NCBI RefSeq assembly: GCF_000327485.1
Contig: NC_019943.1
Span: 1,860,001-1,924,000, forward strand
Source: Methanoregula formicica SMSP
GTDB lineage: Archaea > Halobacteriota > Methanomicrobia > Methanomicrobiales > Methanospirillaceae
Reading direction: 5' to 3'
Length of the DNA stretch: 64,000 nucleotides
Shown: in pieces, positions 20,561 through 37,215 of the stretch
Layout of the letters: every line of letters begins with the position of its first letter
Position numbering within the stretch: position 1 is the first letter of the stretch
Notes under the pieces: generated by a model
Told to the model about the DNA's origin: nothing
Database searches by the model: none
Seen by the model: the letters and a program-made list of their open reading frames with translations, nothing else
Position numbers and translations under genes: made by a program

Positions 20561-21469
20561 TTATCCTGTGCATCCATCACCGTTTCCAGACATCCAGGTA
20601 CTTTGGCTTCCACCCTGCCATGGATTTAGATTCATCCATGCATTTTCGCCAACCCAATTATCCATCTGAGCCCTTGCAAATGCCGCTCCTGTTTTAAGAT
20701 GAGCATTTACCTGTCCGGCAGTTGACCCCGTGCCTGAACCAGCATGAGTAAACGAACACATCGTGTAGGGGAAACTCACATAATACGATGATTGATCAAT
20801 GATTGAAGAAATGCTGATACCATAATCCACATAGAATTTTCCCGTTACTGTGAGACTGGCCCTGATTTCCCCAAAATAATTTTTATACTCATCAGTTCGT
20901 GTTTTAGTAACCTGATAAATTGTCTTGACCGCCGATGAAGATTCAGGAGACGCGATTGAGATAGAATACAGTTGTGTAAGAATATTTGTAGTAACTGAGT
21001 CCCCAAGTGTTTTTTGCTGGAGCGATGCCGGTTTTGCAGGCCCGGATTCTTTCATTTCTCCTAACAATTTGGGAACAATTTTCGTTGTTTTTACCTTATT
21101 TCCATCGTAAGAAAGGGCAAGAACAGAATCACCGCTATCAATGAGAAGAACCTGAGATGATCCAAAATCGTATAATCCTATCACCGATTTTGCTTCATTC
21201 GTAACTTTTCCGATTGCCATTATTCTCTCGACAATCTCCTTCGATTCATCATACCGCTTCAGTGGAATCGAATTTTTCTCGATTTCCGGTCTTTGTAATC
21301 CCATTTTATCAAACAGGTTGATATCACCATTTGAAACAGGATTGATTAGATCCAGATATGTATTTCCTGCAGCGTCAGGATTACCATCTCCCGCACTCAC
21401 CATCGGTACCATCGCCATCGCCGCCAGTAAAAGTGCAAGCAGGACGACCCATGTTTTAGGAATGTTCAT
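20561..21469 (-). CDS. secreted protein of cassette operon 1, unknown fold
   Basis: 302 residues. The signal peptide (MNIPKTWVVLLALLLAAMAM, cleavage near VSA) is almost the same as that of 35566-36882, also at DNA level. The mature part has a propeptide-like N-terminal half with a beta-hairpin pattern (SVIGLYDFGSSQVLLIDSGD, VLALSYDGNKVK) and a C-terminal half rich in Ser/Tyr/Thr ending in a Gly/Trp-rich tail (LNPWQGGSQSTWMSGNGDGC). No catalytic motif recognised. Expressed from a copy of the common promoter and leader; followed by two tiny membrane proteins. It is the only cassette operon with such partners instead of a propeller or lipoprotein. Confidence 0.72.
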   Translation of the reverse strand: MNIPKTWVVLLALLLAAMAMVPMVSAGDGNPDAAGNTYLDLINPVSNGDINLFDKMGLQRPEIEKNSIPLKRYDESKEIVERIMAIGKVTNEAKSVIGLYDFGSSQVLLIDSGDSVLALSYDGNKVKTTKIVPKLLGEMKESGPAKPASLQQKTLGDSVTTNILTQLYSISIASPESSSAVKTIYQVTKTRTDEYKNYFGEIRASLTVTGKFYVDYGISISSIIDQSSYYVSFPYTMCSFTHAGSGTGSTAGQVNAHLKTGAAFARAQMDNWVGENAWMNLNPWQGGSQSTWMSGNGDGCTG

Positions 21470-21688
21470 TTTTCATCAACTCCATTTTCTTATGCTCCAC
21501 TTGCCGGCACTGAAGATTGTCTTCAGAGAATCAGAAGCCACTCTTCACGTACCGTCGGATAGATCCGGGTCCGGCCACACTTCGATCCAAGGCGGGCCCG
21601 TCCTCAGGTTCCGGGACAACCCCCGGCTGTCCACGGGTTCAAATTATATTTTATTATAAATACGATTTGTCGGCCAAAACTTAACACG
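21470..21688 (-). promoter_or_regulatory. shared promoter-operator-leader cassette, copy L1
   Basis: Operator-like TTTGTCGGCCAAAACTTAACACG at 21666-21688 (plus strand), TATA region 21640-21663 (TTATTATAAATA), then a leader to the ATG at 21469. Compared with the other copies, the first hairpin is GGACAGCC-GGG-GGTTGTCC and the GAAG/CTTC hairpin has only four pairs with a longer loop. The operator is identical to the right arm of the inverted repeat at 37301-37323. An extra duplicated block continues upstream to about 21790. Confidence 0.8.
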
Positions 21689-22174
21689 TTCGGACACATG
21701 CATACAGGAAATGAGGTTTCTTATCCGCTGCAATGAAAGAATCTGAAAAAATACAACCCGGAGAGAGAAAGGATGTGATACCATGGTTTCTCCCCGGATC
21801 TGTGGATATTGAAACAATAACCGTCATTCCGATACTCGCATTTTTTCACGGATTACAGTACACAGATTTGAAAATACGTTCCATACGCGGACATTCAGAC
21901 AATCCGGCCCCATTTTTGCCCTTAAAAACGTTAAAATATTGCCTTTCTGTTGGATGATCGCCTATTTTGTCGAACCGGGGGAAGTCCGGAGCAAACCATG
22001 GGGGGTTTTGGCCGACCCCTGGGTGCGAATCTCGGTCGATACACGTTCGTTCTCTATCGATAAACTCGATCGGGAAAAGGTAGATTTCCCACATCCCCCC
22101 ACCTCTTGCCCGATCCCTTCCGCAATCGGCTGCTGTAACTGTGCCGTACCCGCCTGTTTTTCTCCGGTGTCCGA

Positions 22175-22219
22175 CAGGTCTTAAGACCTGGAGGAGAAGA
22201 AGATTCCAAGGGAATCTTC
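22175..22219. repeat. pair of hairpins before the tandem repeats
   Basis: CAGGTCTTAAGACCTG (22175-22190) is a perfect palindrome; GAAGATTCC-aag-GGAATCTTC (22199-22219) is a perfect 9-bp hairpin. The second has a counterpart at 63158-63178 (GAAGAATCC-gaa-GGATTCTTC) in which one base pair is inverted, so pairing is kept. Confidence 0.6.
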
Positions 22220-22300
22220 GACAGGAAAGTGAGGGGAAACGGGGGGTTAATGGCTGCTTTTTCGCGAAATGTCGAACGTTTTCAAACGTGAGACACGAGA

Positions 22301-22508
22301 AGACGAAGTCTTCGAGATTCGAGAGGTTATCAAACCTCGAGACGGAGAAGACGAAGTCTTCGAGATTCGAGAGGTTATCAAACCTCGAGACGGAGAAGAC
22401 GAAGTCTTCGAGATTCGAGAGGTTATCAAACCTCGAGACGGAGAAGACGAAGTCTTCGAGATTCGAGAGGTTATCAAACCTCGAGACGGAGAAGACGAAG
22501 TCTTCGAG
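22301..22508. repeat. 48-bp tandem repeats, four units plus a partial fifth
   Basis: Units start at 22301, 22349, 22397, 22445 and 22493 and look identical. Each holds the palindrome CGAAGTCTTCG and the hairpin GAGGTT-atca-AACCTC. As 48 is divisible by three, several frames are open across the array on both strands (16-residue repeats such as DEVFEIREVIKPRDGE), but none has a convincing start or known product. There are no spacers, so it is not a CRISPR array. Identity between units suggests recent expansion. Confidence 0.85.
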
Positions 22509-22555
22509 TCCTGGTTGCCGGGAATGGAAAAGAGGGGAATCCGGCCCCCATACGT

Positions 22556-22612
22556 GCCCGGATTAAACACCCCCACGGAGAATCCACCGGACGACCTTGT
22601 CCTCGACACCCC
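22556..22612. repeat. 57-bp dispersed repeat, copy 2
   Basis: Same as 19657-19713 with one mismatch. It ends exactly at the stop codon of the CoiA-like gene on the minus strand, so it may include that gene's transcription end, or a duplication end point. Confidence 0.7.
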
Positions 22613-23755
22613 TCACTTCCCCCGTGCCGCTATCTCCCGGTCAAGGTTGTTAAGGGCCTCATCAAACGAATGTTCCCATTGCGAGAATTTCCGGACACAC
22701 TCATCCAGTTTTTTGATCTTCGCTTCCGATTCAAGCCGGAAAACCGGGTATGATGTACTATGCCCCGTGAGTTTTTTCCAGGAGAACAGACCATAACTTT
22801 CAGACATAATCGTTTCATATTCCCGCTTGAACCAGTCGGTTTCAAAAGAAATTTCCCGGAATTTTTGTTGCACGACACTATCGTTCCTCAACCGGTCCGT
22901 TCCAGCGATTTTCCGGTAATACTTCCTGACCTTTTCCTGATAGGTTTCATCACGGATAATCTTCTGATAAAAATCCCGTAACCGGAGCAGCGCAGGAGAG
23001 GCCTGGGATCTCAATGCATGCTTCCGTTGAAAGATCGCGGCGCTTTCCAAGAGATAGTTCCGGTAGTTTCCTTTCAGGACTTCCCGCACCCAGACTGCAA
23101 GCGGAATTTCCGGATTATTGGTGGAAAAGAGCGTCTGCTTTTTTGCACGGAGCCCGACCGTCCGGATATTCTTGGCAATGAAAAGGTGGTTCTCGGTCCC
23201 GGTGAAAAAGAATGAGCGATCGATATACGGGATTCGCTCCTTGTGCCGGTCATCATCAGGGTAAATGTGGCTGTCATACCAGGATTCGAATTCTTTTGCC
23301 CGGTCAAGGTAGTTGTCTAAAAGCCAGTACGACTCAATTCCTTCATCCTGGTATTTCATATCGCGGGATAGCAGGTCTGATGAGGGGATGGGACTCAACT
23401 GGATTTCAAAAACGATCTTCCTTCCATCCTTCTGTGCAAAAACATCACAAATCCATGTACGATCTGCTGAAGGGAATTCTACCGAGGTCTCCCATTGCCC
23501 GGCCTGACAAATCCTGTAGATGAGATATTTGATCTCCAGGTGTTCTTTTGATTCGTTGTCATGGGGACATCCGGTATCAGCCGCATGGTAAAAATGCTGA
23601 GTTCCTTTTGTTGTCCGTAAATGCCCCGGGGCACCACAACAGCACATCCTGACCGGGAGCCCGTTTTTATGCCGGGCCTTCAGCTCTGCCCATTCGACTT
23701 TTGAGAGATCTGGCCCGATTATTGTTTCCCCGTCAATAATCGCTTTCAAGGGCAT
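22613..23755 (-). CDS. CoiA-like nuclease-domain protein
   Basis: 380 residues. The N-terminal part has the CoiA pattern: a zinc-binding-like region with CCCGAPGHLRTTKGTQHFYH and later C, then ESKEHLEIKYLIYRI and a PD-(D/E)XK-type core ICDVFAQKDGRKIVFEIQLS (Asp and E-x-Q as catalytic residues) at about 100-130. CoiA proteins are linked to DNA uptake and recombination in bacteria; the archaeal role is unknown. The C-terminal half is helical and charged. It stands alone, with the tandem repeats downstream and a lipoprotein gene divergent upstream. Confidence 0.8.
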   Translation of the reverse strand: MPLKAIIDGETIIGPDLSKVEWAELKARHKNGLPVRMCCCGAPGHLRTTKGTQHFYHAADTGCPHDNESKEHLEIKYLIYRICQAGQWETSVEFPSADRTWICDVFAQKDGRKIVFEIQLSPIPSSDLLSRDMKYQDEGIESYWLLDNYLDRAKEFESWYDSHIYPDDDRHKERIPYIDRSFFFTGTENHLFIAKNIRTVGLRAKKQTLFSTNNPEIPLAVWVREVLKGNYRNYLLESAAIFQRKHALRSQASPALLRLRDFYQKIIRDETYQEKVRKYYRKIAGTDRLRNDSVVQQKFREISFETDWFKREYETIMSESYGLFSWKKLTGHSTSYPVFRLESEAKIKKLDECVRKFSQWEHSFDEALNNLDREIAARGK

Positions 23756-23944
23756 ATGATCCAGATTTGTTTTCCACCCTATAACGATATTTTTCCCGGT
23801 TCTCTCCCTTTCGTGAGCCGGGAATACGCTCCTCTCCTTTACGAGAAAAACCCTGACGGGAAATATATCCAGGTCATTTTTTCACCCGTAAAAACAACCG
23901 GAACCATGCATACCTTCATCGTTTCGGGCGGGCATTAATATCCC

Positions 23945-24562
23945 ATGACAAACGATTACCTCAAAACCGTAATACTGTTCTTGGCTGTCTTTTTCCTTCT
24001 CGCTGTCGCCGGGTGCACATCCCCGGCCCCGTCATCTCCGGTACCGGCATCATCTCCGGTTCCCACCCCCGGCCTTTCAACGGTTTCACCGGCAGAAATG
24101 GCTTTGCAGCCGGCGGATCTTCCGGGGAATTTCACCCTGCTGGCAAAAGGCGAAAGGAATATTTCTGATATGCGTTCCTGGGCAGTCGAACACGGCTGGA
24201 AACGCGGGTATTTTACCGGCTATATGAAAACCGGAGGGAATGTGTCAGAGGGACCTTTCTTTGAACAGGTCATCTCTGTGTACTCTACTGAAAATATCAC
24301 GCTCATCGTCGAGGATACGATAAACACCTGGAAATCCATGCCGGCTGAAGACAGCAATGTTACTGTTGAAGAGATTTCCCTCCCAACCATCGGGGATTAC
24401 AGCCGTTCGACGAAAGCCTCCGACCGGAGCGATAATACCCGGATGTACGTGATTGCCTTTGTGAAAGACGACGTGTACGAGCAGTTCCAGACAGACGGGA
24501 ACGAAACAGATTTCGAGATACTCCGGCAGATGGCGGTTACTGCAGCTGCAAAGATCCGGTAA
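23945..24562 (+). CDS. lipoprotein, unknown
   Basis: 205 residues with a signal peptide and lipobox (LLAVAGC), then a Pro/Ser/Thr-rich linker (SPAPSSPVPASSPVPTPG) that probably spans the surface layer. The folded domain (about 55-205) starts MALQPADLPGNFTLLAKGER and is typical of small methanogen surface lipoproteins; several N-x-S/T sequons are present. Monocistronic. A T-rich run directly after the stop (24563-24578) may serve as terminator. No enzymatic motif seen. Confidence 0.7.
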   Translation: MTNDYLKTVILFLAVFFLLAVAGCTSPAPSSPVPASSPVPTPGLSTVSPAEMALQPADLPGNFTLLAKGERNISDMRSWAVEHGWKRGYFTGYMKTGGNVSEGPFFEQVISVYSTENITLIVEDTINTWKSMPAEDSNVTVEEISLPTIGDYSRSTKASDRSDNTRMYVIAFVKDDVYEQFQTDGNETDFEILRQMAVTAAAKIR

Positions 24563-24580
24563 TTTTTCTTTTTTTCCCGA
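24563..24580 (+). terminator. T-rich run after the lipoprotein gene
   Basis: The stop codon is followed immediately by TTTTTCTTTTTTTCCC, fitting the T-tract terminators known in euryarchaea. No stem-loop needed or seen. Confidence 0.4.
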
Positions 24581-25317
24581 CCGTGACCAGGGTGACGGCG
24601 GATGTTCATTGAACGTTGTTTACGGGTATGCAAAAAATGCATGAGTTTTTTCCCGCTCAGGTTCCGACAGCCCTTGCCCGGTCCCTCCCTCACCAGGTGA
24701 ACGCACAGCGGGGCCTCCTCGCGGAATAACGCACACTCGATCGTTGCACAGGGAAGGAGCGCCGGGCATTCAAACGGGTCCTGTTGTCGTTCTTCAGAGG
24801 ATAGGTGAATCCCGCACCAGAGGAATTGCATAATCCCGGTTCTGAGGTGATTGAGATAATACAGGAAAGGCAGGGGGAGGGTGAAACTGTTATTGGGCCG
24901 GAAGTATTGGAACGTTCATTACTGGAAATAATATTTCATATGAGGGGATTTTCCTTCCAGAGATTTTATTTCACGCGGAAATCCGTTGTAACATACTTAA
25001 CTTTTCACAAGTCTGGTCATGATCGCGATCAAAAATTTTCAAACGGAATCGAAACCGGAAAGATTTTTTTCAAATCCAATCGCAACCGGGATCGAAACAC
25101 TGAAAAATATCCGGGGAAATTTACTCTGACTTCGTCGTGCGATGCAAATATTTGCAGGAAAAATTTCCGCAAAAAATATTCGGCGCGTTCGCGATCGCAT
25201 TGAAAACTTTTTCAACGCGATCGTGATCGCAGTTGAAAAAAGTTAAACGGATTTGAAAAATGAGTGCGCAATCCTATCACCCTTAGGGAATAGACCAGTT
25301 CGGGTAATAGCCCGGAG
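24581..25317. other. intergenic, AT-rich with palindromes
   Basis: No gene I can support. The part from 24900 to 25260 is AT-rich with many short palindromes: GATCGCGATC (25021-25030), GCAAATATTTGC (25144-25155), TTGAAAACTTTTTCAA (25200-25215), and repeated GATCGC with (A)GTTGAAAA near 25190-25240. Such clusters occur at origins and regulatory regions, but no Cdc6/Orc gene is near. Confidence 0.4.
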
Positions 25318-25830
25318 TCAGATCCGTCCGGGAAGAACTTCCCGCTGGATGAAGATCACTTCCCCGCTCTTTTCATCCACAAGGAAATCCCAGTTACTCC
25401 CCTGATGAAGAACGCGTAGTGCCAGGGCACAAGCCGATCCGCCACTGTCTTTCGGGGTCGGGTGACACTGCAGGAGCACCCCCTCGATCATCCCGCCATC
25501 GAGAAGAATGGCACGGACACGTTCATCAGCTATGGCCGTTTGTGCAACGACATTCTTCCGGTTTTCATCCACCGGATCGGAGGGATCCTGTATACCGATG
25601 TAGGCAATCTCCGAGTAATTCACGACGAGGTCTGGAATCATCCTGGTCACCACAACAGCAGATACCGAAGATTGTACAGGCTCTGCCGGGGTTCCGGTAA
25701 CTGAAGTAGCATTCACCGACACGATATTGACTGGAGTACCCTGAGGGTACGAACATCCGGAGATAATTACCAGGAGAATCACCAGTATTCCAGCAACAGG
25801 AAAGACAGAGGGAGAGTTTGTGTCTGCCAT
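25318..25830 (-). CDS. lipoprotein, unknown, in cassette operon 2
   Basis: 170 residues from the ATG at 25830. Signal peptide and lipobox (ILLVIISGC), a short Thr/Ser linker, then a folded part with LVVNYSEIAYIGIQDPSDPV, AIADERVRAILLDGGMIEGV and a C-terminal DFLVDEKSGEVIFIQRE hairpin. The next protein upstream in the operon has the related stretch VAHIAVQDPCIQKLLREGGF, so the two are probably distant paralogues. Third gene after the glutamic-peptidase-like gene; spacing of 38 bp supports one transcript. Possible PepSY-like or inhibitor fold, not shown. Confidence 0.65.
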   Translation of the reverse strand: MADTNSPSVFPVAGILVILLVIISGCSYPQGTPVNIVSVNATSVTGTPAEPVQSSVSAVVVTRMIPDLVVNYSEIAYIGIQDPSDPVDENRKNVVAQTAIADERVRAILLDGGMIEGVLLQCHPTPKDSGGSACALALRVLHQGSNWDFLVDEKSGEVIFIQREVLPGRI

Positions 25831-25868
25831 CAATTAACTATCCCATGTTTTCATAAATCTCACACTCT

Positions 25869-26447
25869 TCAACACACATCCATGCACTGGTCCCTCGTGC
25901 AGGTATACCCACCCGCCCAGCCTTCCGTAGTGAACGGATCAAAATCCGGTTTGTCATATTGTGCCACATACCGGTACTCGACCATCAGTGAACTGACGTG
26001 CCCCTCTGATTCGTTCACGAATGCTGAAATCCTCCGTTCAGTTGGGTGATCCGGAACATACAGGATGAGTCGTGGAGCCGGTTCTCCATGGAAGGGAATG
26101 TAATAATCAACACCAAGGATGAACCCGCCCTCACGGAGGAGTTTTTGGATACAGGGATCCTGCACGGCAATGTGGGCAACCGTGGAAGAATTTCCAGAAA
26201 ATGAACTATTTGCGATCACCGGTGCAAGTTCCGGCGAGATCCTGTCTGGAATGTCTGCATATCCATGTGTGCTAAGTTGATTATAGGGAATTATCCGGAT
26301 AGATGCATTGGAATAGACAGGGACAGAAAAAATACTGCTGCTATCAGCCTGCGAAGTTGTGGCAATGGGAGATGATTGTACAGATGGACTAATGCAGGCA
26401 GCAGCGAGACAGACTAAAAAGAGAAAGAAAGGTATGATAAACCTCAT
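25869..26447 (-). CDS. lipoprotein, unknown, in cassette operon 2
   Basis: 192 residues from the ATG at 26447 (a GTG 12 bp upstream is possible). Lipobox LVCLAAACI. Mature domain has VAHIAVQDPCIQKLLREGGF and LGVDYYIPFHGEPAPRLILY, with a Cys-rich end (YTCTRDQCMDVC). Similar in parts to the next lipoprotein (25318-25830). It starts 23 bp after the stop of the peptidase-like gene, so it is probably co-transcribed from the L2 cassette. Function unknown; a small lipoprotein beside a secreted peptidase could be an inhibitor or chaperone. Confidence 0.65.
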   Translation of the reverse strand: MRFIIPFFLFLVCLAAACISPSVQSSPIATTSQADSSSIFSVPVYSNASIRIIPYNQLSTHGYADIPDRISPELAPVIANSSFSGNSSTVAHIAVQDPCIQKLLREGGFILGVDYYIPFHGEPAPRLILYVPDHPTERRISAFVNESEGHVSSLMVEYRYVAQYDKPDFDPFTTEGWAGGYTCTRDQCMDVC

Positions 26448-26469
26448 GCAGGAATACACCGGTCCTTAA

Positions 26470-27693
26470 TCAGTTGGGGGTCCATAACTTCACGGTTGAT
26501 GGATTCTGTTCAACAACTGCGCTCAAACCGGAGAAATGTGAGCTTGCTACCGGATCCACATACCCTGATAGAGAGACCGATGCTGCTGATCCCCCTGATT
26601 TCCGATAATTCATGTTATAAAACCTGACATCTCCTGGAAGATCATTGTTGCTGTCTACGCCTAAACCTGTTGCTTCAAGTACTACCTGTGCATTCAGTCC
26701 GCTTGTTGATGACAGTTCGGTTACGAAGATCGAGGATTCAGGATCGCTGTTCCTCCTGATGGAAACCCACCAGCCCGGATACCCGTTGACGGTACTGTAA
26801 TACAAGCTGCCTTTCATGACGTCATTCGTCTGGACACCGGTTATCCTGCGGCCGTAGTAACTGTCAGAAGATCCATCATAATACCAGGGTGCTGCAGTCC
26901 AGGCATAGTTGTTGGAATTGACGTTCCATTCAAGGACCGGTTGTAGGATAAAACCATTTCCTGAAGGCTGAATACTGTTGAAGATCGCGATTTTTTCCCC
27001 CATGTTGTTTGTCAGCGGGGTTCCTGGTGTTGCCCAGTAGGCTTCGAAACGCGTCAGTTCCGGGATGTAGTTATCTTCAGCATATTCAAACCAGCCTGAA
27101 CAACGTCCTGCGGGATTGCACCCGACAGTGTCTCGTGCCGCTGCAAGGGAGACGCTGCTTTTTGGCCTGTCCGAAGCACCGGAATGATCGATGACTGTCA
27201 GGACAAGGTTGTTGCCCTTATCAAAGGTGTACGTAATATTAGGTTCTTCCGGATCAGTAAGTATCATGGAGCCGGAAGGTACTTCATGGACATAGGTTGC
27301 GGGGAGATCCTTTCCCGAAGTCCGGACCTTTGTTGTTTTCTCATCAACCGCAGAGAAGAGTTGCCGTCCTGTTGAATCAAATACTGTTGTTACACCATTA
27401 TCAGCATGATAAATGATCGACCCATAGGGAATTTCCGAATCGATTAGCTCAAACGATTCACGCGCTTGTTTTTCATACAAGGAAGACACTTCAGGATCAA
27501 GAAAAAGTTCTTTCGTCACGATTACTTTTGTCTGATTATCGTCAAATTGCAATTCAGGTAACTGGATATTCCGGATATCAGGTGCTGGATTTGTTGAGGA
27601 TGTCTCATCCACAGCAGCATTCACTACTGTTACCATTGCCATCGCCGCCACCAGCAGTGCCAGCAGCAGGATGTTGAATTTTCCAAGTTGCAT
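26470..27693 (-). CDS. secreted glutamic-peptidase-like protein, cassette operon 2
   Basis: 407 residues; signal peptide MQLGKFNILLLALLVAAMAM. A propeptide-like region (about 30-165, IPYGSIIYHADNGVTTVFDS) precedes a domain at about 195-370 that follows the eqolisin (peptidase G1) pattern: a strand ending in FEAYWATPGTP, then IQPSGNGFILQPVLEWNV, where the family has W-x-G-x-x-G...I-L-Q-x-G, and later LNAQVVLEATG, near where the family has A-E-W-I-V-E. The Gln of LQ and the Glu of VLEA are candidates for the catalytic pair. Paralogue of 35566-36882. The family call is inference from motif order; fold and activity need checking. Confidence 0.6.
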   Translation of the reverse strand: MQLGKFNILLLALLVAAMAMVTVVNAAVDETSSTNPAPDIRNIQLPELQFDDNQTKVIVTKELFLDPEVSSLYEKQARESFELIDSEIPYGSIIYHADNGVTTVFDSTGRQLFSAVDEKTTKVRTSGKDLPATYVHEVPSGSMILTDPEEPNITYTFDKGNNLVLTVIDHSGASDRPKSSVSLAAARDTVGCNPAGRCSGWFEYAEDNYIPELTRFEAYWATPGTPLTNNMGEKIAIFNSIQPSGNGFILQPVLEWNVNSNNYAWTAAPWYYDGSSDSYYGRRITGVQTNDVMKGSLYYSTVNGYPGWWVSIRRNSDPESSIFVTELSSTSGLNAQVVLEATGLGVDSNNDLPGDVRFYNMNYRKSGGSAASVSLSGYVDPVASSHFSGLSAVVEQNPSTVKLWTPN

Positions 27694-27920
27694 TTTTTTA
27701 TCACGTCCTTAGATTTTTTCCAGAGCCTCCGCTCACCGGCATGAGAAAAATCTTCAAAGAATCAGAAGATCCTCTTCACGTTTCTTAAAGCAGAGTCTAG
27801 GTCCAGCCGCACTTCGATCCGGGGCGGGCCTGTCCTCTGGTTCTGGGACAATCTCCGGTTGTCCACGGGTTCAAATTATATTTTATTATAAATATGATTT
27901 GTCGGTCAAAACTTAACACG
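27694..27920 (-). promoter_or_regulatory. shared promoter-operator-leader cassette, copy L2
   Basis: Operator TTTGTCGGTCAAAACTTAACACG at 27898-27920, TATA region 27876-27894, leader to the ATG at 27693. The most diverged leader copy, yet hairpins hold: GGACAA/TTGTCC replaces the G.U pair of the others by A-U, and GAAGA-gga-TCTTC keeps its stem with a new loop. The upstream duplicated block of L1/L4/L5 is missing. Confidence 0.8.
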
Positions 27921-28046
27921 TTCCTGCGAATGGTAGCGATGGCAGAGATATTTCCTCAACAGTACCAAGATCTCATGAGAGATTCAGTAACTCTTCAGCA
28001 AGTTCAACCTCACCTTAAATCCCGTCTAACACTTTACCCGTCATTA

Positions 28047-28769: not shown

Positions 28770-28884
28770 CGTTTCCCTCCGAGAGAATTATGTGGGCCGG
28801 GAATAATCCGCAACCGCTCCCAGCGAATTCAGAGCAGAATCAGCAAAACAAAACCGAACATGAGACACAATTTCTTCTGTTTCA

Positions 28885-30198
28885 TCATGTCCTGCCCTTC
28901 CGTTTTCCAGAGACCATGAATGTGACAATCCCCATCAGGACAGTAATACAGAAAACGCCGGTAAAACCGGGCAGGGTGGGGGTTGTTGGCATTAGGGGCA
29001 AATCTGTTGTATTGTTACCGGCCGATACATTGTTTTCAGATAACGTCCGATCAGGTTTGCCTTCACGGACCGGAAAAAATAACAACCGATCGGAGAGTGC
29101 GGCAACAGAGGTTCCATCACGGGATACCATGACCGGGCAAACGGTCTGATTGAGCCGGTACTCTTTCAGGAGATTTCCGCTTCCATCGAAAACAACGATT
29201 CCGGTCGCGGTCCCTGCAGCGATCGTCTCCCCGTTCTCCGAGAGGGAAACACTGTAGACAGGGGCGGACACCGAATAGTTCCAGAGTTGTTCACCATGAT
29301 GGTCAAGCAGCTGGATCTTATCCTCACTACCGGCCAGGACATACCTCCCATTGGTGGTGAGCGACAATACCCTCCCGATATCGGAAAATAACGAATGCTC
29401 CCACCGGACCCTGCCATCGGTACTGAAAGAGAACGTATTTTGGGCGGGATAGCCGGAAACAATCAGGTCCTGTCCGTCCGGAGAGATGCCGGGATTATTG
29501 ATACCCCGCACCTGACGCTTCCAGATCAACCGGCCATCTTTTGCGAGATAATACGCATCATTTGTATACTGCCCTTCCACATTTCCCCCGGTTGCCAGCA
29601 GATAATTTCCGTCAGGAGATACCGCAATATCAGTAATGGGGGAATCTGACTTGTATTTCCAGCGGAGTGCCCCGGAACGATCAAGGCATATCAGTGACCG
29701 GGTATGATAACCAACGAAAGTATCCTCACCGTTACCGGATATCGCAATAGTGCCCGGGGGTTCATTGGTCGAATAATTCCAGAGCAGGTTTCCCTGCCGG
29801 TCGAACAGGATCACCCGGTTCGATGTAGTGTTCGTCACAACTCCCCGGCAACACCCGGGGACCATCACGGAAATTCCGATACGCGAACTATCCGGGGATA
29901 TCGTGATCCCGGATATCCATGGTGACCACCCTCCCGCACTCCTTTCGGGAACGTATGACCACATCAGGGACCCGTTTGTCGAAACGACAAAAAGTTCAGT
30001 CTTATCGGGATTGCTGGATACCAGAAACCGGTTATCCGGAGATATTGCGATTCGTCCCACGATTCCCGGATGCAGTCCGGCATCAGGAAAGTCCATGGTC
30101 CAGAGAGGATCGACCGCCTCGCAACAGGCTGGAATCGTGAGAAAAATGAGTCCCATCAGGAACAATATCCTCATGGCTGACCGTGGGTCCAATCTCAT
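28885..30198 (-). CDS. surface beta-propeller protein (PQQ-like repeats)
   Basis: 437 residues from the ATG at 30198, which leaves 19 bp after the previous stop; longer frames would overlap that gene. Signal peptide (ILFLMGLIFLTIPACCEA). Six or seven repeats of the PQQ/WD type, e.g. IAISPDNRFLVSSNPDKTEL, LFVVSTNGSLMWSY, ICLDRSGALRWKYKSDSPIT, IAVSPDGNYLLATGG, LLDHHGEQLWNYSVSAPVYS. A C-terminal helix and GKRKGRT tail anchor it in the membrane. Second gene of the L3 operon, after the truncated S1-like protein. Same architecture as 31317-32684. Likely a binding or scaffolding protein at the cell surface; ligand unknown. Confidence 0.8.
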   Translation of the reverse strand: MRLDPRSAMRILFLMGLIFLTIPACCEAVDPLWTMDFPDAGLHPGIVGRIAISPDNRFLVSSNPDKTELFVVSTNGSLMWSYVPERSAGGWSPWISGITISPDSSRIGISVMVPGCCRGVVTNTTSNRVILFDRQGNLLWNYSTNEPPGTIAISGNGEDTFVGYHTRSLICLDRSGALRWKYKSDSPITDIAVSPDGNYLLATGGNVEGQYTNDAYYLAKDGRLIWKRQVRGINNPGISPDGQDLIVSGYPAQNTFSFSTDGRVRWEHSLFSDIGRVLSLTTNGRYVLAGSEDKIQLLDHHGEQLWNYSVSAPVYSVSLSENGETIAAGTATGIVVFDGSGNLLKEYRLNQTVCPVMVSRDGTSVAALSDRLLFFPVREGKPDRTLSENNVSAGNNTTDLPLMPTTPTLPGFTGVFCITVLMGIVTFMVSGKRKGRT

Positions 30199-30217
30199 GC
30201 CATCAATCCACAGAAAT

Positions 30218-30778
30218 TTATGCTTCGCGACGCATGAAAATGTTTGCACTATTCCTTCCACGGAAATCCGTTGTGCCCCACCCATTAGTAGAGGATAATT
30301 CAATTCCTCCAACGACAGGCCTGATCTTGTCGAACCTTGACTCAACTTTCATCAGACCGATAGACAGAAATTTACAAGGAATGTCTTTAATCCCATTTCT
30401 CTCCCCATTTTTCTTAATTACTTCATAAATTTCTTTTATCAAGGTGGGATCCACTTTCATGTCTTTATTGATCTGGACAACCATTGTCCCATACATGTCA
30501 TAACCATGACCGATAACGGGTCCATTTGGATAATAATATTTATCAAGATCCTTATCAGCATCAGCAGTTACTTTTTGGAGCTGATCGACCCACGTATCCG
30601 GAACCGAATTTGTTACAGCGATATTCTTTTGCATATCACCAGACAAATTTCCGAAAGATGAGATGAGAATATTTTTGTAATATACGTCGTCTCCATTTGT
30701 GGCACTCACAAACAGTATCATCGCCATCGCTGCTACCAGCAGCGCCAGCAGCAGGATGTTGAATTTTCCAAGTAGCAT
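30218..30778 (-). CDS. secreted S1-like peptidase, apparently truncated, cassette operon 3
   Basis: 186 residues; signal peptide MLLGKFNILLLALLVAAMAM. The mature part looks like the propeptide of a chymotrypsin-type (S1) peptidase and reaches IRPVVGGIELSSTNGWGTTD, which resembles the start of such a domain (RPxxGGIxxxxxxGxxTxGF), but then ends after RGRNSANIFMRREA. The catalytic His, Asp and Ser regions are missing, and the next gene begins 19 bp later, so the peptidase domain seems deleted and replaced by the propeller gene. Alternatively it is a real small secreted protein sharing only the propeptide. Expressed from cassette copy L3. Confidence 0.55.
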   Translation of the reverse strand: MLLGKFNILLLALLVAAMAMILFVSATNGDDVYYKNILISSFGNLSGDMQKNIAVTNSVPDTWVDQLQKVTADADKDLDKYYYPNGPVIGHGYDMYGTMVVQINKDMKVDPTLIKEIYEVIKKNGERNGIKDIPCKFLSIGLMKVESRFDKIRPVVGGIELSSTNGWGTTDFRGRNSANIFMRREA

Positions 30779-31004
30779 TTTTTTTCACCTCCTTAGATTT
30801 TTTCCAGAGGCTCCGTTCACCGGCATGAGAAAAATCTTCAAAGAATCAGAAGAACATCTTCACGTGCCTTCAGGCAGGATCCGGGTCCAGCCGCACTTCG
30901 ATCCGGGGCGGGCCCGTTCTCTGGTTCTGGGACAACCTCCGGCTGTCCACGGGTTCAAATTATATTTTGTTATAAATACGATTTGTCGGTCAAAACTTAA
31001 CACG
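30779..31004 (-). promoter_or_regulatory. shared promoter-operator-leader cassette, copy L3
   Basis: Operator TTTGTCGGTCAAAACTTAACACG at 30982-31004, TATA region 30961-30978 with one T-to-G change against other copies, leader to the ATG at 30778. Hairpins GGACAGCC-GGA-GGTTGTCC and GAAGA-tgt-TCTTC intact. Upstream similarity stops about 12 bp beyond the operator. Confidence 0.8.
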
Positions 31005-31316
31005 TCCGGACACATGCCGGTAAATATCTGTCATAAATTCTCGCCGGAAATACTGGGTTTCCATTACACCCACCTCCCGTCCGATCCCTCCCGCGAACCG
31101 ATCAACCAGACCTTGCTCAAAATTGTTTCATTAAGGTCTGCTGAAAACAACCGGGTCTTCAGTCACATGAAGTAGCATCCTGTCTGTCCCCGATAAGATA
31201 TTTACATCCAATCCGGACAGCGCAGGTTGTTGGTTTGATTTGAGACGCCGACACCTCGTCCCCTCCTCCTGTACTTTTCTGTTAAGCAATCCTCTCGTGT
31301 AATCCTGCGTCACTCA
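31005..31316. other. intergenic, no gene seen
   Basis: 312 bp between the L3 operator and the end of the propeller gene 31317-32684. Only spurious short frames. A C-rich stretch (31064-31090) slightly resembles the repeats at 12465 and 22093. Confidence 0.45.
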
Positions 31317-32684
31317 TTACCCCCGTTTTCGAGAGTGCCTGCATACCGCCAGAGAAATCCCTGTGGCCACCACAACAACGGTTATCATCAGGGGGCTTTG
31401 ACGGGTAGGTGTTGGCTGGGCTGGCTGCCCGGGAGATACCGTTACGCCAAAGGATTGTTCAGGGCCGGATTCTGACAGGTTGACTTCCGCTGGTTTTTCC
31501 CGAGTGATCCGGTACAGGGAATTCCCGGTCCGTACACCAATAGTTTTCCCGTTGTCTGATAGGGCAACATCCTGTACCGGCCCATCTGCGCTGCATTCAG
31601 AAAGCCTGGCACCGTTTTCATCAAGGATACTGACAATTCCTCCCGATGATCCGGCTACAAGAACATGCCCGTTTCCTGAGGCATGCAGGGAGGAATAATA
31701 CGTGTTCTCTATCCTGACATCAGGAGAGTTATTCCATACAGGTTGCCCTTTCCGGTCCAGACAGATAACTGTGGGAAGTGCACGAGTATTTTCCGAAGGC
31801 CCTTCTCCTGCGGTAACCGCGATATATACTGAGTTCCCGTCAGGTGACAAGACAACACTTCTGGACCCGACAGGTAACTGACGGGTAAAGAGGCGGGCCC
31901 CGTCCCATGTGTAGAGTGCCAGTATATTTTTATTGAGGGTCACAACAGCAACTGATGAACCGGATCGATCCATGGCCACGGCATTCCCTCCATGAGTCGT
32001 CACGCTCCAGAGAAGATGACCGGTATTGTCAAGGAAGAAGAGGTCTGCTTCCGGCAATACCTCGGCCCGAGAATATGCGCTGGCACCCGCAACAATATAT
32101 TTTCCATCATCGGACTGGGCGATACTCCCCACCGGAACCGGGGTCCGGTAATTCCATACCATTGTCCCATTACCGTCAGTCAGTGTAACATTGCCCCCGG
32201 TTCCCGGCCATACGACCATTCCGGCAGTCAGGATCGTACTTCCGTTCCCGGTTACAGCCAGATCCAGAACATGATCGGGGAGATCCTTTTTCCAGAGGAG
32301 TGTCCCGTTCCCGTCAAGGAGCACCAATTCACGGTCCCAGGATGCAGCAGCGATCCGTTCACCACCGGAGGTGATTTTGATCTGTCGCAGATCCCCGCCC
32401 GGGGTGGAATTCCACGCTACCCGGCCGTCCTCTGTCACGAGGAATATCCGGTTACCGGATATGCTGGCAAGGTGCGAGCTATTGGCGGACATTGCAAGGA
32501 ACGAATTCGCAGACACATCACTCTCTCCTGTGTCTATCCTCCCCCCACACTCGGGCAGAATAGCAAGGACAGGGGTTGTCAGGCATGCAAGTAAAAGGAT
32601 TGCGAGAAGAGAGATGCCTGTGCCGGCCCGGCACCGGACCATTCCGGAACAGCAGGAGAGCCGAACTCTTTTGGATCCTTTCAT
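31317..32684 (-). CDS. surface beta-propeller protein (PQQ-like repeats), cassette operon 4
   Basis: 455 residues. Signal peptide (GISLLAILLLACLTTPVLA); repeats of the PQQ/WD type (ASISGNRIFLVTEDGRVAWN, LVLLDGNGTLLWKKDLPDHV, LTDGNGTMVWNYRTPVPVGS, LFFLDNTGHLLWSVTTHGGN, VICLDRKGQPVWN); a Pro/Thr linker (PGQPAQPTPTRQSP) and a C-terminal helix with a basic end (CRHSRKRG). Starts 36 bp after the C39-like peptidase gene and so belongs to the L4 operon. Architecture matches 28885-30198. Function as surface ligand-binding protein is inferred. Confidence 0.8.
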   Translation of the reverse strand: MKGSKRVRLSCCSGMVRCRAGTGISLLAILLLACLTTPVLAILPECGGRIDTGESDVSANSFLAMSANSSHLASISGNRIFLVTEDGRVAWNSTPGGDLRQIKITSGGERIAAASWDRELVLLDGNGTLLWKKDLPDHVLDLAVTGNGSTILTAGMVVWPGTGGNVTLTDGNGTMVWNYRTPVPVGSIAQSDDGKYIVAGASAYSRAEVLPEADLFFLDNTGHLLWSVTTHGGNAVAMDRSGSSVAVVTLNKNILALYTWDGARLFTRQLPVGSRSVVLSPDGNSVYIAVTAGEGPSENTRALPTVICLDRKGQPVWNNSPDVRIENTYYSSLHASGNGHVLVAGSSGGIVSILDENGARLSECSADGPVQDVALSDNGKTIGVRTGNSLYRITREKPAEVNLSESGPEQSFGVTVSPGQPAQPTPTRQSPLMITVVVVATGISLAVCRHSRKRG

Positions 32685-32720
32685 TCAGATGCACTCCATG
32701 GAAAAATGAGAGGGGTGGGG

Positions 32721-33911
32721 TCAACTCTTGACAAAGATTGACGACACATAAGGACTTGAGCCACCATACCACCTCTCCCAGCTGAGGGCTCCCGAGTTAA
32801 CCGGCCATGGATCGTAAAGGTAGAAATAAATATTCCCGGAGGAGGTGTCACGTGAATATCCCGCACAGGCCCGGGCATGGTAGTTGGTTGACTGCCCCGG
32901 CTTGATCCCAATGTTGATCACGACGGGCCGGTTACCATCGATCTCGGATTTGATCAGGTCATACAAGTTAGATGGGGATCCGATACGGATGAAAGACCCT
33001 GACTTGCCAAGACCGCCCTGTGCCGGGGATTTTTTATAGTAACCATTGGTTATCTCAGTTTCAGTTGCGCCGTTGTCCGGATTGACTCCCGCAGTCTGGG
33101 CAATCTGTAACTGGGATTTAGATACCCCGTACCATGCTGAGATCATTTTTGCTGTGGCAAAGGCGCACCAGTTCGTCCCTTCCTGACCATACAGCGTGAA
33201 CCCGCTCAGAGTCTTGCTTACGGTTCCACGCGGTGAAACCGTCAGGGACTGCCTGGTGGCCTTCTGCTCTTGTGCCTCCCATGAAACTACACCGGATTTC
33301 ATTGAATCGAGAGAAATGGATTCATACATCGATCCTTGGCCGGATGCCGGTATAACTGAATAATCGTAGGCATCGATAATCAGCGTCGTTCCTGCACCGG
33401 ATTTTGCGGGTACGGTCACTCCAAGACCGACCTTCGGGTAAGCATAACAAACCAGCAGGGTGGTTGCTTTATCAGGAGAATATCCGGCATTTTTCAGTGC
33501 CTGCTCTGCTTTTTTATTCAGCTCATCCATAGCAATTGCCTGCGGCCCATTCCCGATAGAAATTAGGGGCGCGCCAAAAACCTTGCTGGCGGCGATTTTT
33601 ACTTCACCAACTTTTTTCTTTCCGTTCAGCAGTGGAAACGAATAATAGAGTTTCAGGCCATTGATATCGTAAACTGAAACAGGATCCGGACTAACAGATG
33701 CCCCGCTGAACTCTTCCCCGAGAAGTCCGTCTGAGACAAACTGTGCAAGTTCATATTGGGCAGAGCCATATGCTTCCTTTTCTGTGATATAATTATTCTG
33801 AATAATGGCAATCCGTTCAGAACTAATATCTCCGGCACTCACGATCGGTATCATCACCATTGCTGCCACCAGCAGTGCCAGCAGCAGGATGTTGAATTTT
33901 CCAAGTAGCAT
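32721..33911 (-). CDS. secreted C39-like cysteine peptidase, cassette operon 4
   Basis: 396 residues from the ATG at 33911 (AAGGA 10 bp upstream); the GTG 9 bp further up would leave no spacing. Signal peptide MLLGKFNILLLALLVAAMVM. A propeptide-like region (about 30-220) precedes a papain-like C39_2 domain: QEGTNWCAFATAKMISAWYG holds the catalytic Cys, TNYHARACAGY the His and FYLYDPWP the Asp. All three are in the family order, so it may be active. Such enzymes cut extracellular proteins or peptides. Followed by a surface propeller; driven by cassette copy L4. Confidence 0.78.
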   Translation of the reverse strand: MLLGKFNILLLALLVAAMVMIPIVSAGDISSERIAIIQNNYITEKEAYGSAQYELAQFVSDGLLGEEFSGASVSPDPVSVYDINGLKLYYSFPLLNGKKKVGEVKIAASKVFGAPLISIGNGPQAIAMDELNKKAEQALKNAGYSPDKATTLLVCYAYPKVGLGVTVPAKSGAGTTLIIDAYDYSVIPASGQGSMYESISLDSMKSGVVSWEAQEQKATRQSLTVSPRGTVSKTLSGFTLYGQEGTNWCAFATAKMISAWYGVSKSQLQIAQTAGVNPDNGATETEITNGYYKKSPAQGGLGKSGSFIRIGSPSNLYDLIKSEIDGNRPVVINIGIKPGQSTNYHARACAGYSRDTSSGNIYFYLYDPWPVNSGALSWERWYGGSSPYVSSIFVKS

Positions 33912-34137
33912 TTTTATCACGTCCTTAGATTTTTTCCAGAGGCTCCGCTCGCCGGCACAAAGAAAACTCCTCAGAGAATCAGAAGAACATCTTCACGTGC
34001 ATTCGGGCAGGATCCGGGTCCAGCCGCACTTCGATCCGGGACGGGCCCGTCCTCAGGTTCTGGGACAACCTCCGGCTGTCCACGGGTTCAAATTATATTT
34101 TATTATAAATACGATTTGTCGGTCAAAACTTAACACG
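33912..34137 (-). promoter_or_regulatory. shared promoter-operator-leader cassette, copy L4
   Basis: Operator TTTGTCGGTCAAAACTTAACACG at 34115-34137; TATA region 34091-34112; leader to the ATG at 33911. On the transcript: hairpin GGACAGCC-GGA-GGTTGTCC (34063-34081), palindrome GGACGGGCCCGTCC, hairpin GAAGA-tgt-TCTTC (33982-33994), and AAGGACGTGAT before the start. A duplicated block continues upstream to about 34240. Confidence 0.82.
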
Positions 34138-34313
34138 TTCGGACACATGCATACAGGAAATGAGGTTTCTTATCCGCTGCAATGAAAGAATCTGAAAAAT
34201 ACAACCCGGAGAGAGAAAGGATGTGATACCATGGTCTCTCCGGATTGGCGGACATCTGGATGATGGCCGCCCAGCCAAAGGTATAACCCTTTTCGAAAAT
34301 ACAGCTCCTGCTT

Positions 34314-35537
34314 TCATGCGTTACCGGAATAATGATTCCGCTTTTTAAGGCAATATCCTAAGGCAGCTCCGGTAAGAAGCAGAAGACCCCAGGAGATCGG
34401 ATCAATTCCGCTCTGAACAGTTGTTGCCAGCGCTACTGGCTGCATGGGGGAAATATTCCCAGACACGGTCGGAGTGGTTTCCATATCCCGAGCCAATCCC
34501 GGTAGTGGCATACTCCAGATGTCGCCAGCTATCCGGTAATTGTCCGTGCCACCAAGAATCCAGATCCCGTCCTTGAACACAACGACTCCCTGCAAAAAGC
34601 GTGGGCTGAACCCGGGGTCTTCATTCTCGAGCGTCCAGTTATTACCATCGGGCGAAGACCAGACTTCGCTGAATGCGTGGGGGGAAGCATATTTTGTATG
34701 TTTTGCCAGGGTTTCCCAGTTTCCCCCGCCGATAACCCAGATCTTCCGGTTCGCGGAAACTACTGGAGTAAATTCCTGGTATTTGAACGGAGCATCTGCT
34801 GTGACCAATGTCCAGTTTAATCCGTTTTTGGAAGACCACACATCTTTCGATCCACCTTCGCTGATATACGTATAATCCGTGACGGGATCCGTGTATGTAC
34901 TGTCTCCGGTACCTCCGACCAAATAGAGCCGGTCATTAAATACCACAATTCCCTTTCCATACCTCGGGCTGAATGACGTGCTGTTCGTGATCTCAGTCCA
35001 TGTTATCCCATCAGGAGACGACCAGACGTCGTTTTTCAGATTGTCAAATGTGCCTCCGCCGATAACCCAGAGCCGGTTGTCAAAATCTGCTACCCCCATA
35101 TCGCTGCGCGGACTGAACCCGGCATGCCCGGTTTCCAGCGTCCATGTTACCCCATCGGGAGATGACCAGACATCATTCGTTCCGGATCCTCCTATGACCC
35201 AGAGCCGTTCATGAAATACCAGTACACCATGACCGGAACGCGGGCTGAAAGCTGCGTGATCGGTCACCTTTTCCCATGATTGCCCATCGGGAGATGACCA
35301 GATGTCATTCATATCGCAGGTCGAATTACCGGAACAACCCCAGAAGTATCCATTGCGGGTATGACCGCCAATCACCCAGATGTGGTCGTGGAATACTGCC
35401 GTACCGAAATCATATCGTGGCCCGAATTCAGGGGATATGGCGACATTACTCCAGTTTCCCGTATGAGGTTCTTCTGCACCGACAATCCCGGTACTAAAAA
35501 TGAGCAACGAAATAATCAGAATATGGCGGGCGTTCAC
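34314..35537 (-). CDS. surface Kelch-type beta-propeller protein, cassette operon 5
   Basis: About 407 residues from the GTG at 35537, which has GGGAGG 7 bp upstream; the TTG at 35552 lies inside that ribosome site. Signal peptide (ILIISLLIFSTGIVGA). Six Kelch-like repeats with the pattern F-x-x-R-x-x-G...D-R-L-W-V-I-G-G...N-D-V-W-S-S-P-D-G-x-x-W (e.g. NDVWSSPDGVTWTLETGHAG). C-terminal membrane helix and KKRNHYSGNA tail. It follows the glutamic-peptidase-like gene by 28 bp and forms the L5 operon. It repeats the rule that a cassette-driven secreted protein is followed by an anchored propeller. Confidence 0.8.
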   Translation of the reverse strand: MNARHILIISLLIFSTGIVGAEEPHTGNWSNVAISPEFGPRYDFGTAVFHDHIWVIGGHTRNGYFWGCSGNSTCDMNDIWSSPDGQSWEKVTDHAAFSPRSGHGVLVFHERLWVIGGSGTNDVWSSPDGVTWTLETGHAGFSPRSDMGVADFDNRLWVIGGGTFDNLKNDVWSSPDGITWTEITNSTSFSPRYGKGIVVFNDRLYLVGGTGDSTYTDPVTDYTYISEGGSKDVWSSKNGLNWTLVTADAPFKYQEFTPVVSANRKIWVIGGGNWETLAKHTKYASPHAFSEVWSSPDGNNWTLENEDPGFSPRFLQGVVVFKDGIWILGGTDNYRIAGDIWSMPLPGLARDMETTPTVSGNISPMQPVALATTVQSGIDPISWGLLLLTGAALGYCLKKRNHYSGNA

Positions 35538-35565
35538 TGGTATTCCTCCCAAAAAAAGAAGGGGG

Positions 35566-36882
35566 TTAATTGTTGCCGGTATTCAGTGAAATCGATGCAG
35601 GCCATGATGAATTCGTTACCGATAAACCGTAAGCAGTCGGACTCCAGTTCGCCGTATTAACATATCCGGGCATAGATGCCGGTATCACAGAATTCCCATA
35701 TATATCATTGATAATAATATTAGTAAATGTTGTGTTTCCCGGCAGGTAACTGGAGTTGTAGGATTGCGGGTTTAAGGCAACGGTATTCCATCCCTCGAGT
35801 ACAGTATATGCTTGAAGATTGCGATAGGTCAGATCTGAAGACTGAGATGAATTCAGGAAGAGTGTCGAACTGATCCCCAATGTCAGGTCAGTAATCGCGC
35901 CACTCCAGATTGCTCCCGAGTGGTAAAGATTTCCCTGGATGAGATCTCCCGATTCAACCAGTTCTCCGGTCGAAGGGATTCCGTATCTCCGAGTTGAGTG
36001 AATCCCATTCCCGTTATTCTCCTTGGGAGAAATCCACCACGATGCGATGCTCCAGTTCGCTTCAGTGGGATAAGGATCACTTGCTTTGCTTCGTACATAC
36101 CATTCAAGAACCGGCTGAAGGAGGTAGGTCCCATTGGTGTCTTCTAGACCATTCCAGACAGTGCTTTGCGATCCATCGATAGAAATTCCCGGAGTGTAGG
36201 GAGAAACAAGGACAGGTTCTTTTGGGACATTCCACCGGGCAGAGAATTGTCCAACCGTTGAAATTCGCGCTGTTTCACCGTATTCAATCCATTGCGGTGA
36301 CAGTGTCTGGGGGCTGCAGGTCTGCAATGATGACGAAACGAATTCGTGTACCCCGCCGGATTTTCCAACTATCGATACTATCCGGTTATTATTGAAGAAC
36401 ACATGGGTAATATCGCCTTTGTCAACGATCAGGGATTGATCCGGGACTTCGAATACGAATGTTGCCGGCAATGCTCCGCCAACAATATTGATCAGTGGTG
36501 CAGTTGCATCGTCAACAGCAAAGAGTTGGATCCCGTCAGAATCAAATACCGTTGTTACCCCGTTGTTGGAATGCTCGACAATAGCACCAAATGGAAGATT
36601 TGTCACAATGGGGACTGCCGATTCAGTTACCCTCATGGCAACCTGCGAGCTCTGCGTACTATCGCTCATCCTGAATTCTCCATTGATTATTGCTTTCTTC
36701 TGGGTCTGGAGGTATTGTAACCGAGGTAATTGAGTATTACTCTGGTTGAGGGAAGCAGCGTTCAGTTCTGATATTTTTTCACTATCGGTAGCACTCAAAG
36801 CATTCGCACTCACCATCGGTACCATCGCCATCGCCGCCACCAGCAGTGCCAGCAGGACGACCCATGTTTTAGGTATGTTCAT
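35566..36882 (-). CDS. secreted glutamic-peptidase-like protein, cassette operon 5
   Basis: 438 residues; signal peptide MNIPKTWVVLLALLVAAMAM as in 20561-21469. Propeptide-like part (FGAIVEHSNNGVTTVFDSDG) as in the paralogue 26470-27693. The domain at about 205-400 matches the eqolisin (G1) order more clearly: VGQFSARWNVPKEP, VWNGLEDTNGTYLLQPVLEW (family W-x-G-x-x-G...L-Q), and NLQAYTVLEGWNTV (family A-E-W-I-V-E). The LQ Gln and VLEG Glu are candidate catalytic residues. Many N-x-S/T sequons. Leads the L5 operon, followed by the Kelch protein. Fold inferred from motif order only. Confidence 0.62.
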   Translation of the reverse strand: MNIPKTWVVLLALLVAAMAMVPMVSANALSATDSEKISELNAASLNQSNTQLPRLQYLQTQKKAIINGEFRMSDSTQSSQVAMRVTESAVPIVTNLPFGAIVEHSNNGVTTVFDSDGIQLFAVDDATAPLINIVGGALPATFVFEVPDQSLIVDKGDITHVFFNNNRIVSIVGKSGGVHEFVSSSLQTCSPQTLSPQWIEYGETARISTVGQFSARWNVPKEPVLVSPYTPGISIDGSQSTVWNGLEDTNGTYLLQPVLEWYVRSKASDPYPTEANWSIASWWISPKENNGNGIHSTRRYGIPSTGELVESGDLIQGNLYHSGAIWSGAITDLTLGISSTLFLNSSQSSDLTYRNLQAYTVLEGWNTVALNPQSYNSSYLPGNTTFTNIIINDIYGNSVIPASMPGYVNTANWSPTAYGLSVTNSSWPASISLNTGNN

Positions 36883-37105
36883 TTTTCTTCAACTCCATTT
36901 TTTCCAGAGGCTCCGCTCACCGGCACAAAGAAAACTCCTCAGAGAATCAGAAGACTATCTTCACGTGCATTCGGGCAGGATCCGGGTCCAGCCGCACTTC
37001 GATCCGGGGCGGGCCCGTCCTCAGGTTCTGGGACAACCTCCGGCTGTCCACGGGTTCAAATTATAGTTTATTATAAATACGATTTGTCGGTCAAAACTTA
37101 ACACG
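36883..37105 (-). promoter_or_regulatory. shared promoter-operator-leader cassette, copy L5
   Basis: Operator TTTGTCGGTCAAAACTTAACACG at 37083-37105; TATA region 37059-37079 (one T-to-G change); leader to the ATG at 36882. Hairpin 1 as in L4; second hairpin GAAGA-tag-TCTTC, a third loop variant on the same stem. Together with L1 it carries the MNIPKTWVV signal-peptide type. Confidence 0.8.
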
Positions 37106-37215
37106 TCCGGACACTTGCATACAGGAAACCCGGTTTCTTATCCACTGCAATGAAAAAACTGAAAAAATACAACCCGGAGAGAGAAAGGATGTGATACCAT
37201 GGTTTCTCCCCGGAT
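37106..37215. repeat. duplicated block upstream of cassette L5
   Basis: About 110 bp (CCGGACACTTGCATACAGG through CCATGGTTTCTCCCCGGATC) that recurs upstream of L1 (21689-21800) and L4 (34138-34243). It has no frame kept in all copies. It extends the copied unit in these three loci to about 390 bp including the signal peptide. Confidence 0.75.

Follow-up and report, generated by a model that had tools for sequence, protein, structure and literature searches.

The stretch of DNA considered here (the window) is 64,000 nucleotides (nt) long and covers positions 1860001-1924000 of the single-contig genome of Methanoregula formicica SMSP (2,820,858 bp). It holds an array of genes for secreted proteins that share a 5' unit, which we call a cassette: an operator, a TATA box, a leader of about 170 nt, and the coding sequence of a Sec-type signal peptide of about 26 residues, which is the only coding part that the cassettes have in common. 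Alignment within the window identified five copies, all on the minus strand. L1 (21392..21684) has its operator at 21665-21684, then the TATA box, a leader that runs to 21470, and the signal peptide at 21392-21469. The same elements are found in L2 (27616..27916; operator 27897-27916, signal peptide 27616-27693), L3 (30701..31000; operator 30981-31000, signal peptide 30701-30778), L4 (33834..34133; operator 34114-34133, signal peptide 33834-33911), and L5 (36799..37101; operator 37082-37101, signal peptide to 36799).

Most pairs of cassettes are 75-92% identical over about 290-320 nt (for example, 92% for L3-L4, 91% for L2-L3, and 75% for L1-L2). The likeness ends abruptly, a few codons past the signal peptide, and no similarity was found by BLASTP or phmmer (at 1e-3) between the mature proteins of L1, L2/L5, L3, and L4. 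Among L1, L4, and L5 the aligned unit is longer (425-443 nt, versus about 310 nt for L2/L3). All of this had been proposed in a sequence-only reading of the window: five copies with differing mature proteins, similarity that stops soon after the signal peptide, and a longer copied unit in L1, L4, and L5. The alignments and protein comparisons bear it out. The five copies are real, but that reading omitted a regulator pair at 37363-38663, a sixth, partial copy of the leader (47767-47943, minus strand), and about 14 further signal-peptide genes of the cassette kind elsewhere in the genome. The sixth leader copy lies upstream of a gene for a beta-lactamase-fold lipoprotein (46519-47679, minus strand) without the cassette signal peptide; the leader likewise precedes a gene with another signal peptide at position 2884 of locus L025.

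The proteins behind the cassettes, or cargo, are diverse. The 51 signal-peptide genes in eight genomes fall into 14 mature-protein families, which include glutamic-peptidase-like, C39-like, S1-like, metallopeptidase proteins of the HExxH type (HEALH in B3, HEIGH in M10), and zinc-dependent phospholipase-C-like (E = 0.001) proteins as well as unknowns. In the window, all on the minus strand, the mature part of the L1 cargo (family M2, 20561..21391) has no match in Pfam or NCBIfam, and the L4 cargo (family M1, 32721..33833) is a C39-like peptidase (PF13529, E = 9.6e-15), as previously suggested; PF13529 was also found in A1, B1, and B4. The L2 (26470..27615) and L5 (35566..36798) cargo belong to family M0, which we predict to be glutamic-peptidase-like. 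M0 has no Pfam match at E <= 0.1, and a sequence search of the PDB gave nothing convincing. A Foldseek search with an AlphaFold model of low confidence (pLDDT 41, on the predicted local distance difference scale) was led by scytalido- and aspergilloglutamic peptidases (top match 2ifw, scytalidoglutamic peptidase, E = 6e-5, probability 1.00), and the sequences of 12 homologues all keep Q251 and E340. We take the fold match as support only, so the glutamic-peptidase label of the sequence-only reading survives as a prediction. Its S1-like label for L3 holds for the intact copy in a near-identical strain, STB_131 (345 amino acids, with VTAGH and GDSGAP), but the window copy (mature part 30218..30700) is a truncated gene of 186 amino acids without the catalytic half and its motifs (His, GDSG). 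STB_131 also has a membrane-anchored relative of the S1-like N-terminal part. The window L3 gene (30218-30778, minus strand) is a deletion derivative, in which the S1-like protein and the membrane-anchored relative seem to have been joined when sequence between repeated stretches was deleted.

Cargo genes are accompanied by partner genes that track the type of cargo and not the cassette. The L5 cargo, from an M0 group that has a Kelch partner, is followed by an exported Kelch propeller with a C-terminal membrane anchor (34314..35552; topology as read from sequence), and the L4 cargo by a PQQ/WD-type propeller with a C-terminal anchor (31317..32684). Another propeller gene lies downstream of L3 (28885..30345); all three are on the minus strand. 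Kelch propellers accompany all seven genes of this M0 group, PQQ-type propellers follow seven C39 genes in the genomes that we read, and a toroid protein accompanies three of three M3 genes (for example, the alpha/alpha-toroid domain of L022:7257-9050, plus strand; PF00432, E = 1.9e-18).

The window array is one of several. The genome contains about 20 cassette copies at four main sites and one small one; beyond the window, arrays lie near 1.16, 1.51, and 2.31 Mb and also at 0.10 Mb. The operator TTAAGTTTTGACCGACAAAT, with up to three mismatches, has 13 sites in 2.82 Mb, versus none for a reversed-pattern control. An alignment of 19 upstream regions revealed a common layout and two types of operator: the window, A, and D arrays have ACRTGTWAAGTTTTGACCGACAAATC, and the B and C arrays have ACGTGTAG...GACAGAAATC. 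Other genomes have more operator types (classified by pattern and by visual inspection), yet the first hairpin of the leader (GGACAGCCGG..GGTTGTCC) is constant. Further copies with different cargo, the outcome that the sequence-only reading said would support it, are present both in this genome and in its relatives; the copies are more alike than the mature domains, and the similarity is not confined to a promoter common to all genes of the organism. As a separate observation, one transposase-like open reading frame (ORF) of 311 amino acids occurs in two arrays (L022:9575-10510 and L024:3000-3935), and the L022 copy adjoins a truncated fragment of glutamic-like cargo.

Cargo and cassette have separate histories. 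In the closed SMSP genome, a stretch of 472 bp is common to B2 and B3 at 99.4% identity, and the proteins encoded beyond it are unrelated. For one gene, the single-contig genomes G081 and G137 agree at 97-99% between -90 and +378, but its promoter is unrelated (35%) and of another operator type. Among 15 M0 genes, the cassette tree rejects a well-supported cargo clade (approximately unbiased test, p = 5.5e-56), and the M0 cargo tree rejects a clade of L2 and L5 (p = 8e-7). The nearest cassette belongs to a different cargo family for 27 of the 51 genes, and in 42 of 46 cases the closest cargo comes from another genome. Together, these results, none of which depends on the order of blocks in the STB_131 assembly, imply that exchange can affect the promoter, the signal peptide, and the cargo separately.

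Comparison with STB_131, a Methanoregula metagenome-assembled genome (MAG) of low coverage (5.4x), shows the exchanges between near-identical strains. Orthologue pairs were set by hand from the mature sequences, whose DNA is 97-100% identical between the strains (except for the truncated L3). The 5' end was kept in L1, L3, B1, and D1 and exchanged in L4, L5, A2, and A4. L4 is 53-55% identical in the leader and 60% at the start of the signal peptide, L5 is 65% identical at the start of the signal peptide, and A2 and A4 are 70-84% identical across leader and signal peptide; the change-over point lies in the signal-peptide core (nt ~40-78). The array reads sensor-L5-L4-L3-L2-L1 in SMSP (the sensor gene is described below) and sensor-L4-new M6 gene-L3-phospholipase-like M12-...-L5-L1 in STB_131. 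Between relatives, blocks of cargo plus downstream partners have changed order, appeared, and disappeared, and the junctions lie inside cassettes: cassettes make up about 11% of the array, and all five block junctions in SMSP and all six in STB_131 fall in cassettes or their upstream extension. In addition, STB_131 lacks module A3, with the edges of the gap at the A3 and A4 cassettes; its A modules are neighbours of D1, whereas in SMSP they are about 1 Mb distant from it. The sequence-only reading had a cassette being transferred onto new cargo genes. Its cassette was right, but because whole modules are joined to different cassettes, exchange at the 5' end relocates cargo no less than cassettes, and what moves is better described as cargo-plus-partner modules that recombine at shared 5' ends.

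Covariation indicates that the leader RNA is structured and under selection, and it belongs to no Rfam family (no Rfam covariance model matched it up to E = 1). In RNAalifold analysis of 18 leaders from SMSP, 24 pairs were predicted, eight of them with compensatory change. With a covariance model and a cut-off of E <= 0.01, 48 of 199 genomes from the order gave matches, although the weaker ones may be chance; 28 of the 199 have a best match at E <= 1e-6, 18 of these are from the same genus, and there are often several copies in each. As an alignment not guided by the model, 26 leaders from other genomes, none of which was used to build it, were aligned with MAFFT, and de novo folding gave hairpins 1 and 2 and a third, long stem. 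In this alignment 96.1% of the cells are paired (at most 44% if the partner columns are slid), and nine of 25 pairs have compensatory change. Among 84 leaders in an alignment that leans towards the covariance model, changes on both sides were seen in 19 of 24 pairs, with 141 double-change cells versus 44.9 +/- 5.8 after shuffling. Folding of the L4 leader as a single sequence gave no significant result (z = -0.9); the evidence for structure is the covariation.

Pairs of genes linked to the arrays encode a small secreted protein and then a membrane protein with two winged-helix domains. In the window, an inverted pair of class I operators (37268..37324; 37268-37287 on the minus strand and 37305-37324 on the plus strand) precedes a small secreted beta protein that begins MKVHWLALL (37363..37818, plus strand), the putative sensor partner, and the winged-helix membrane protein (37854..38663, plus strand), the putative regulator. 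Both domains of the regulator exceed Pfam's curated cut-offs (HTH_HVO_0163_N, 41.8 bits; HTH_24, 66.2 bits), and the protein is 99% identical to its STB_131 counterpart. A fold search with the sensor gave no significant match (the best, at E = 0.03, was to subtilase C-terminal beta domains), and PADLOC gave only generic winged-helix matches for the regulator. Each regulator pair is preceded by inverted operators of the same type as the neighbouring cassettes (judged from pattern matches for types I, IV, and V, and by visual inspection for type II and the remaining loci). Mainly because of this match, we infer that the winged-helix protein binds the operator. The cassettes would then form regulons, with each operator class also preceding a linked pair that likely includes its regulator. 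We considered autorepression through an operator placed after the TATA box of the regulator and dropped the idea because the order, operator and then a TATA-like sequence, is the same in cargo and regulator promoters. A relative of the regulator (36% identical) is encoded at 49904-50629 (minus strand), near the sixth leader copy.

A GTGATACCATG element (37191..37201, plus strand) lies about 163 nt before the start of the sensor gene and recurs upstream of L1 (21775) and L4 (34223). It sits within a small inverted repeat, the sensor's own start is also GTGATACCATG, and the position is conserved at other class I regulator loci. That the upstream stretch of L1 and L4 carries this sensor-type element suggests that both were copied from the cassette next to the regulator.

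Other genes and repeats lie in or beside the window array. Between L2 and L1 there is a gene for a CoiA-type nuclease (22613-23755, minus strand; PF06054, E = 4.8e-14). Direct repeats at 22278-22508, upstream of L1, have a spacing of about 96 bp and 96% identity over 136 bp, with open frames on both strands and similar sequence in the STB_131 array. Adjoining the array, 15008-19207 (plus strand) encodes, by reading, a Ser/Thr kinase with repeats and then a ClpB-type AAA ATPase.

We consider it probable that the cassettes are the common 5' end of a secretome that undergoes shuffling, in which cargo-plus-partner modules recombine at the cassettes. The cassettes would act as repeats for ordinary homologous recombination or for gene conversion. 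The small secreted partner may sense something outside the cell and act with the membrane-bound winged-helix protein, which would bind the operator just upstream of the TATA boxes of the cargo genes and of its own operon and more likely activates than represses. The leader may add a layer of control after transcription, acting on translation or stability. The cargo would be exported hydrolases, probably zymogens, directed against outside macromolecules or competitors, and their membrane-anchored or lipoprotein partners may bind, anchor, or inhibit the matching cargo. Several points weigh against this account. The STB_131 array holds an 858-bp exact repeat, and assemblers misjoin repeated cassettes; two STB_131 cassettes (L084_16235 and L085_658) share 292 identical nt. 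The roles proposed for regulator, cargo, and leader come from sequence, the M0 model is poor (pLDDT 41), no partner matched an immunity family, and most partners have no recognised family. Some of the cassette identity within an array could also come from recent tandem duplication.

The repeats and the low coverage of the MAG raise the question of whether the apparent shuffling is an artefact of misjoined repeats in STB_131. Not all of the STB_131 junctions are simple misjoins, because the remaining cassettes share at most 111 nt and the replaced L4 cassette is unlike the rest (nothing else in STB_131 matches it above 0.77). The replaced A4 cassette is also unlike any other there, and closed or single-contig genomes lead to the same conclusion; we give an assembly artefact almost no credence. 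Plain tandem duplication of one secreted-protein gene, with the 5' end held by selection while the mature part diverged as in conotoxin precursors, and with no exchange, would fit the same-strand arrays and the conserved 5' ends. The strains show the reverse, with mature parts 97-100% identical and the 5' end replaced, and conotoxin-like divergence was rejected on these grounds. The cargo also differ in catalytic motifs and domains, cassette and cargo trees conflict, and B2 and B3 match at 99.4% as far as the signal peptide, past which they are unrelated, so that duplication without exchange seems very improbable.

The exchange might instead be the work of a site-specific or mobile system, integron-like or transposon-like, in which a dedicated recombinase cuts at a leader hairpin or another fixed site. 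The leader hairpins are indeed conserved and transposase-like genes occur in two arrays, but the junctions are scattered over the operator or the sequence upstream of it, the leader, and the signal-peptide core, with no single crossover site. Moreover, the leader keeps its base pairs by compensatory change, on the transcribed strand and before the ORF, and no recombinase was recognised among the window-array ORFs examined, which do not cover every ORF. We regard such a system as improbable. Another view is that the cassettes reflect ordinary shared regulation and that ectopic recombination is a by-product of repeated DNA, shuffling itself not being selected for. Repeats can recombine homologously without any function dedicated to it, and the leader also precedes genes with other signal peptides (window 47767 and L025 2884). 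On the other hand, cargo turnover in many genomes, matched partners, and several operator classes suggest selection on exchange, though this is unproven; we think the by-product view unlikely but worth keeping in mind.

If modules do recombine at the cassettes, then an archaeal secretome has been diversified by recombining enzyme-plus-partner modules behind a regulated export unit, rather than by mutation of the enzymes. To this would be added a structured 5' leader RNA outside Rfam, a set of paired sensors and regulators whose operators match, and an extensive reserve of secreted methanogen hydrolases that await characterisation. Little is known about how methanogens interact with the cells around them. 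More tentatively, this may be a dedicated archaeal system of expression slots, which we see as possible but still on the doubtful side. A sensor-controlled promoter, leader RNA, and signal peptide would together be a selected recombination joint, at which Methanomicrobiales trade hydrolase-partner modules and switch them between regulons, with operators and winged-helix regulators co-evolving. Such a system would be an archaeal parallel to polymorphic effector systems, with the 5' end of the mRNA in place of a carrier protein, and in this regulated form it has a real chance of deserving its own name.

Our search of the literature found no description of these arrays, which fits the statement in the sequence-only reading that no archaeal system of this kind had been described, although that reading did not name a related idea, the VARTIG modules discussed below. 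Some components have partial parallels. Glutamic peptidases (MEROPS G1, eqolisins; PMC3009609) resemble M0 in the invariant Gln and Glu, and family members led the fold search; unlike them, M0 has no Pfam match at the threshold used, and its catalytic dyad is only predicted. ToxR/ToxS-type co-component transmembrane regulators likewise combine a membrane-anchored winged-helix DNA-binding protein with a partner outside. The resemblance is one of layout only, as the putative regulator here has two archaeal winged-helix domains (HVO_0163_N and HTH_24) and a small secreted beta partner.

As whole systems, the arrays resemble polymorphic toxin systems (Zhang et al. 2012, PMC3482391), which combine a conserved export part with many unrelated effectors, exchange by recombination, and following genes specific to the effector type. 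Here too, a variable effector part is recombined behind a constant export part. However, polymorphic toxin systems, which in their classical form are rare in archaea (PMC3482391), have a multidomain trafficking/processing protein, where the arrays have only a promoter, a leader RNA, and a signal peptide. Their toxins are nucleases or deaminases, whereas the cargo here are peptidases and lipase-like hydrolases. The partners in the arrays travel with the cargo but matched no known immunity family, and the exchange extends to transcriptional control. The VARTIG modules of Thermococcales (PMC8416519) are likewise hypervariable archaeal loci with exported proteins, recombination, and changing downstream genes. 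They center on a large Ig-domain protein (arCOG07710) with a variable C-terminus, and Pfam identified no Ig-domain protein among the cargo and partners of the window, where the joint is instead the 5' expression unit. The authors of that study were unable to locate the recombination sites (PMC8416519), while in the arrays described here the junctions can be placed. VARTIG is the closest archaeal idea that we found, and it is built from different parts.

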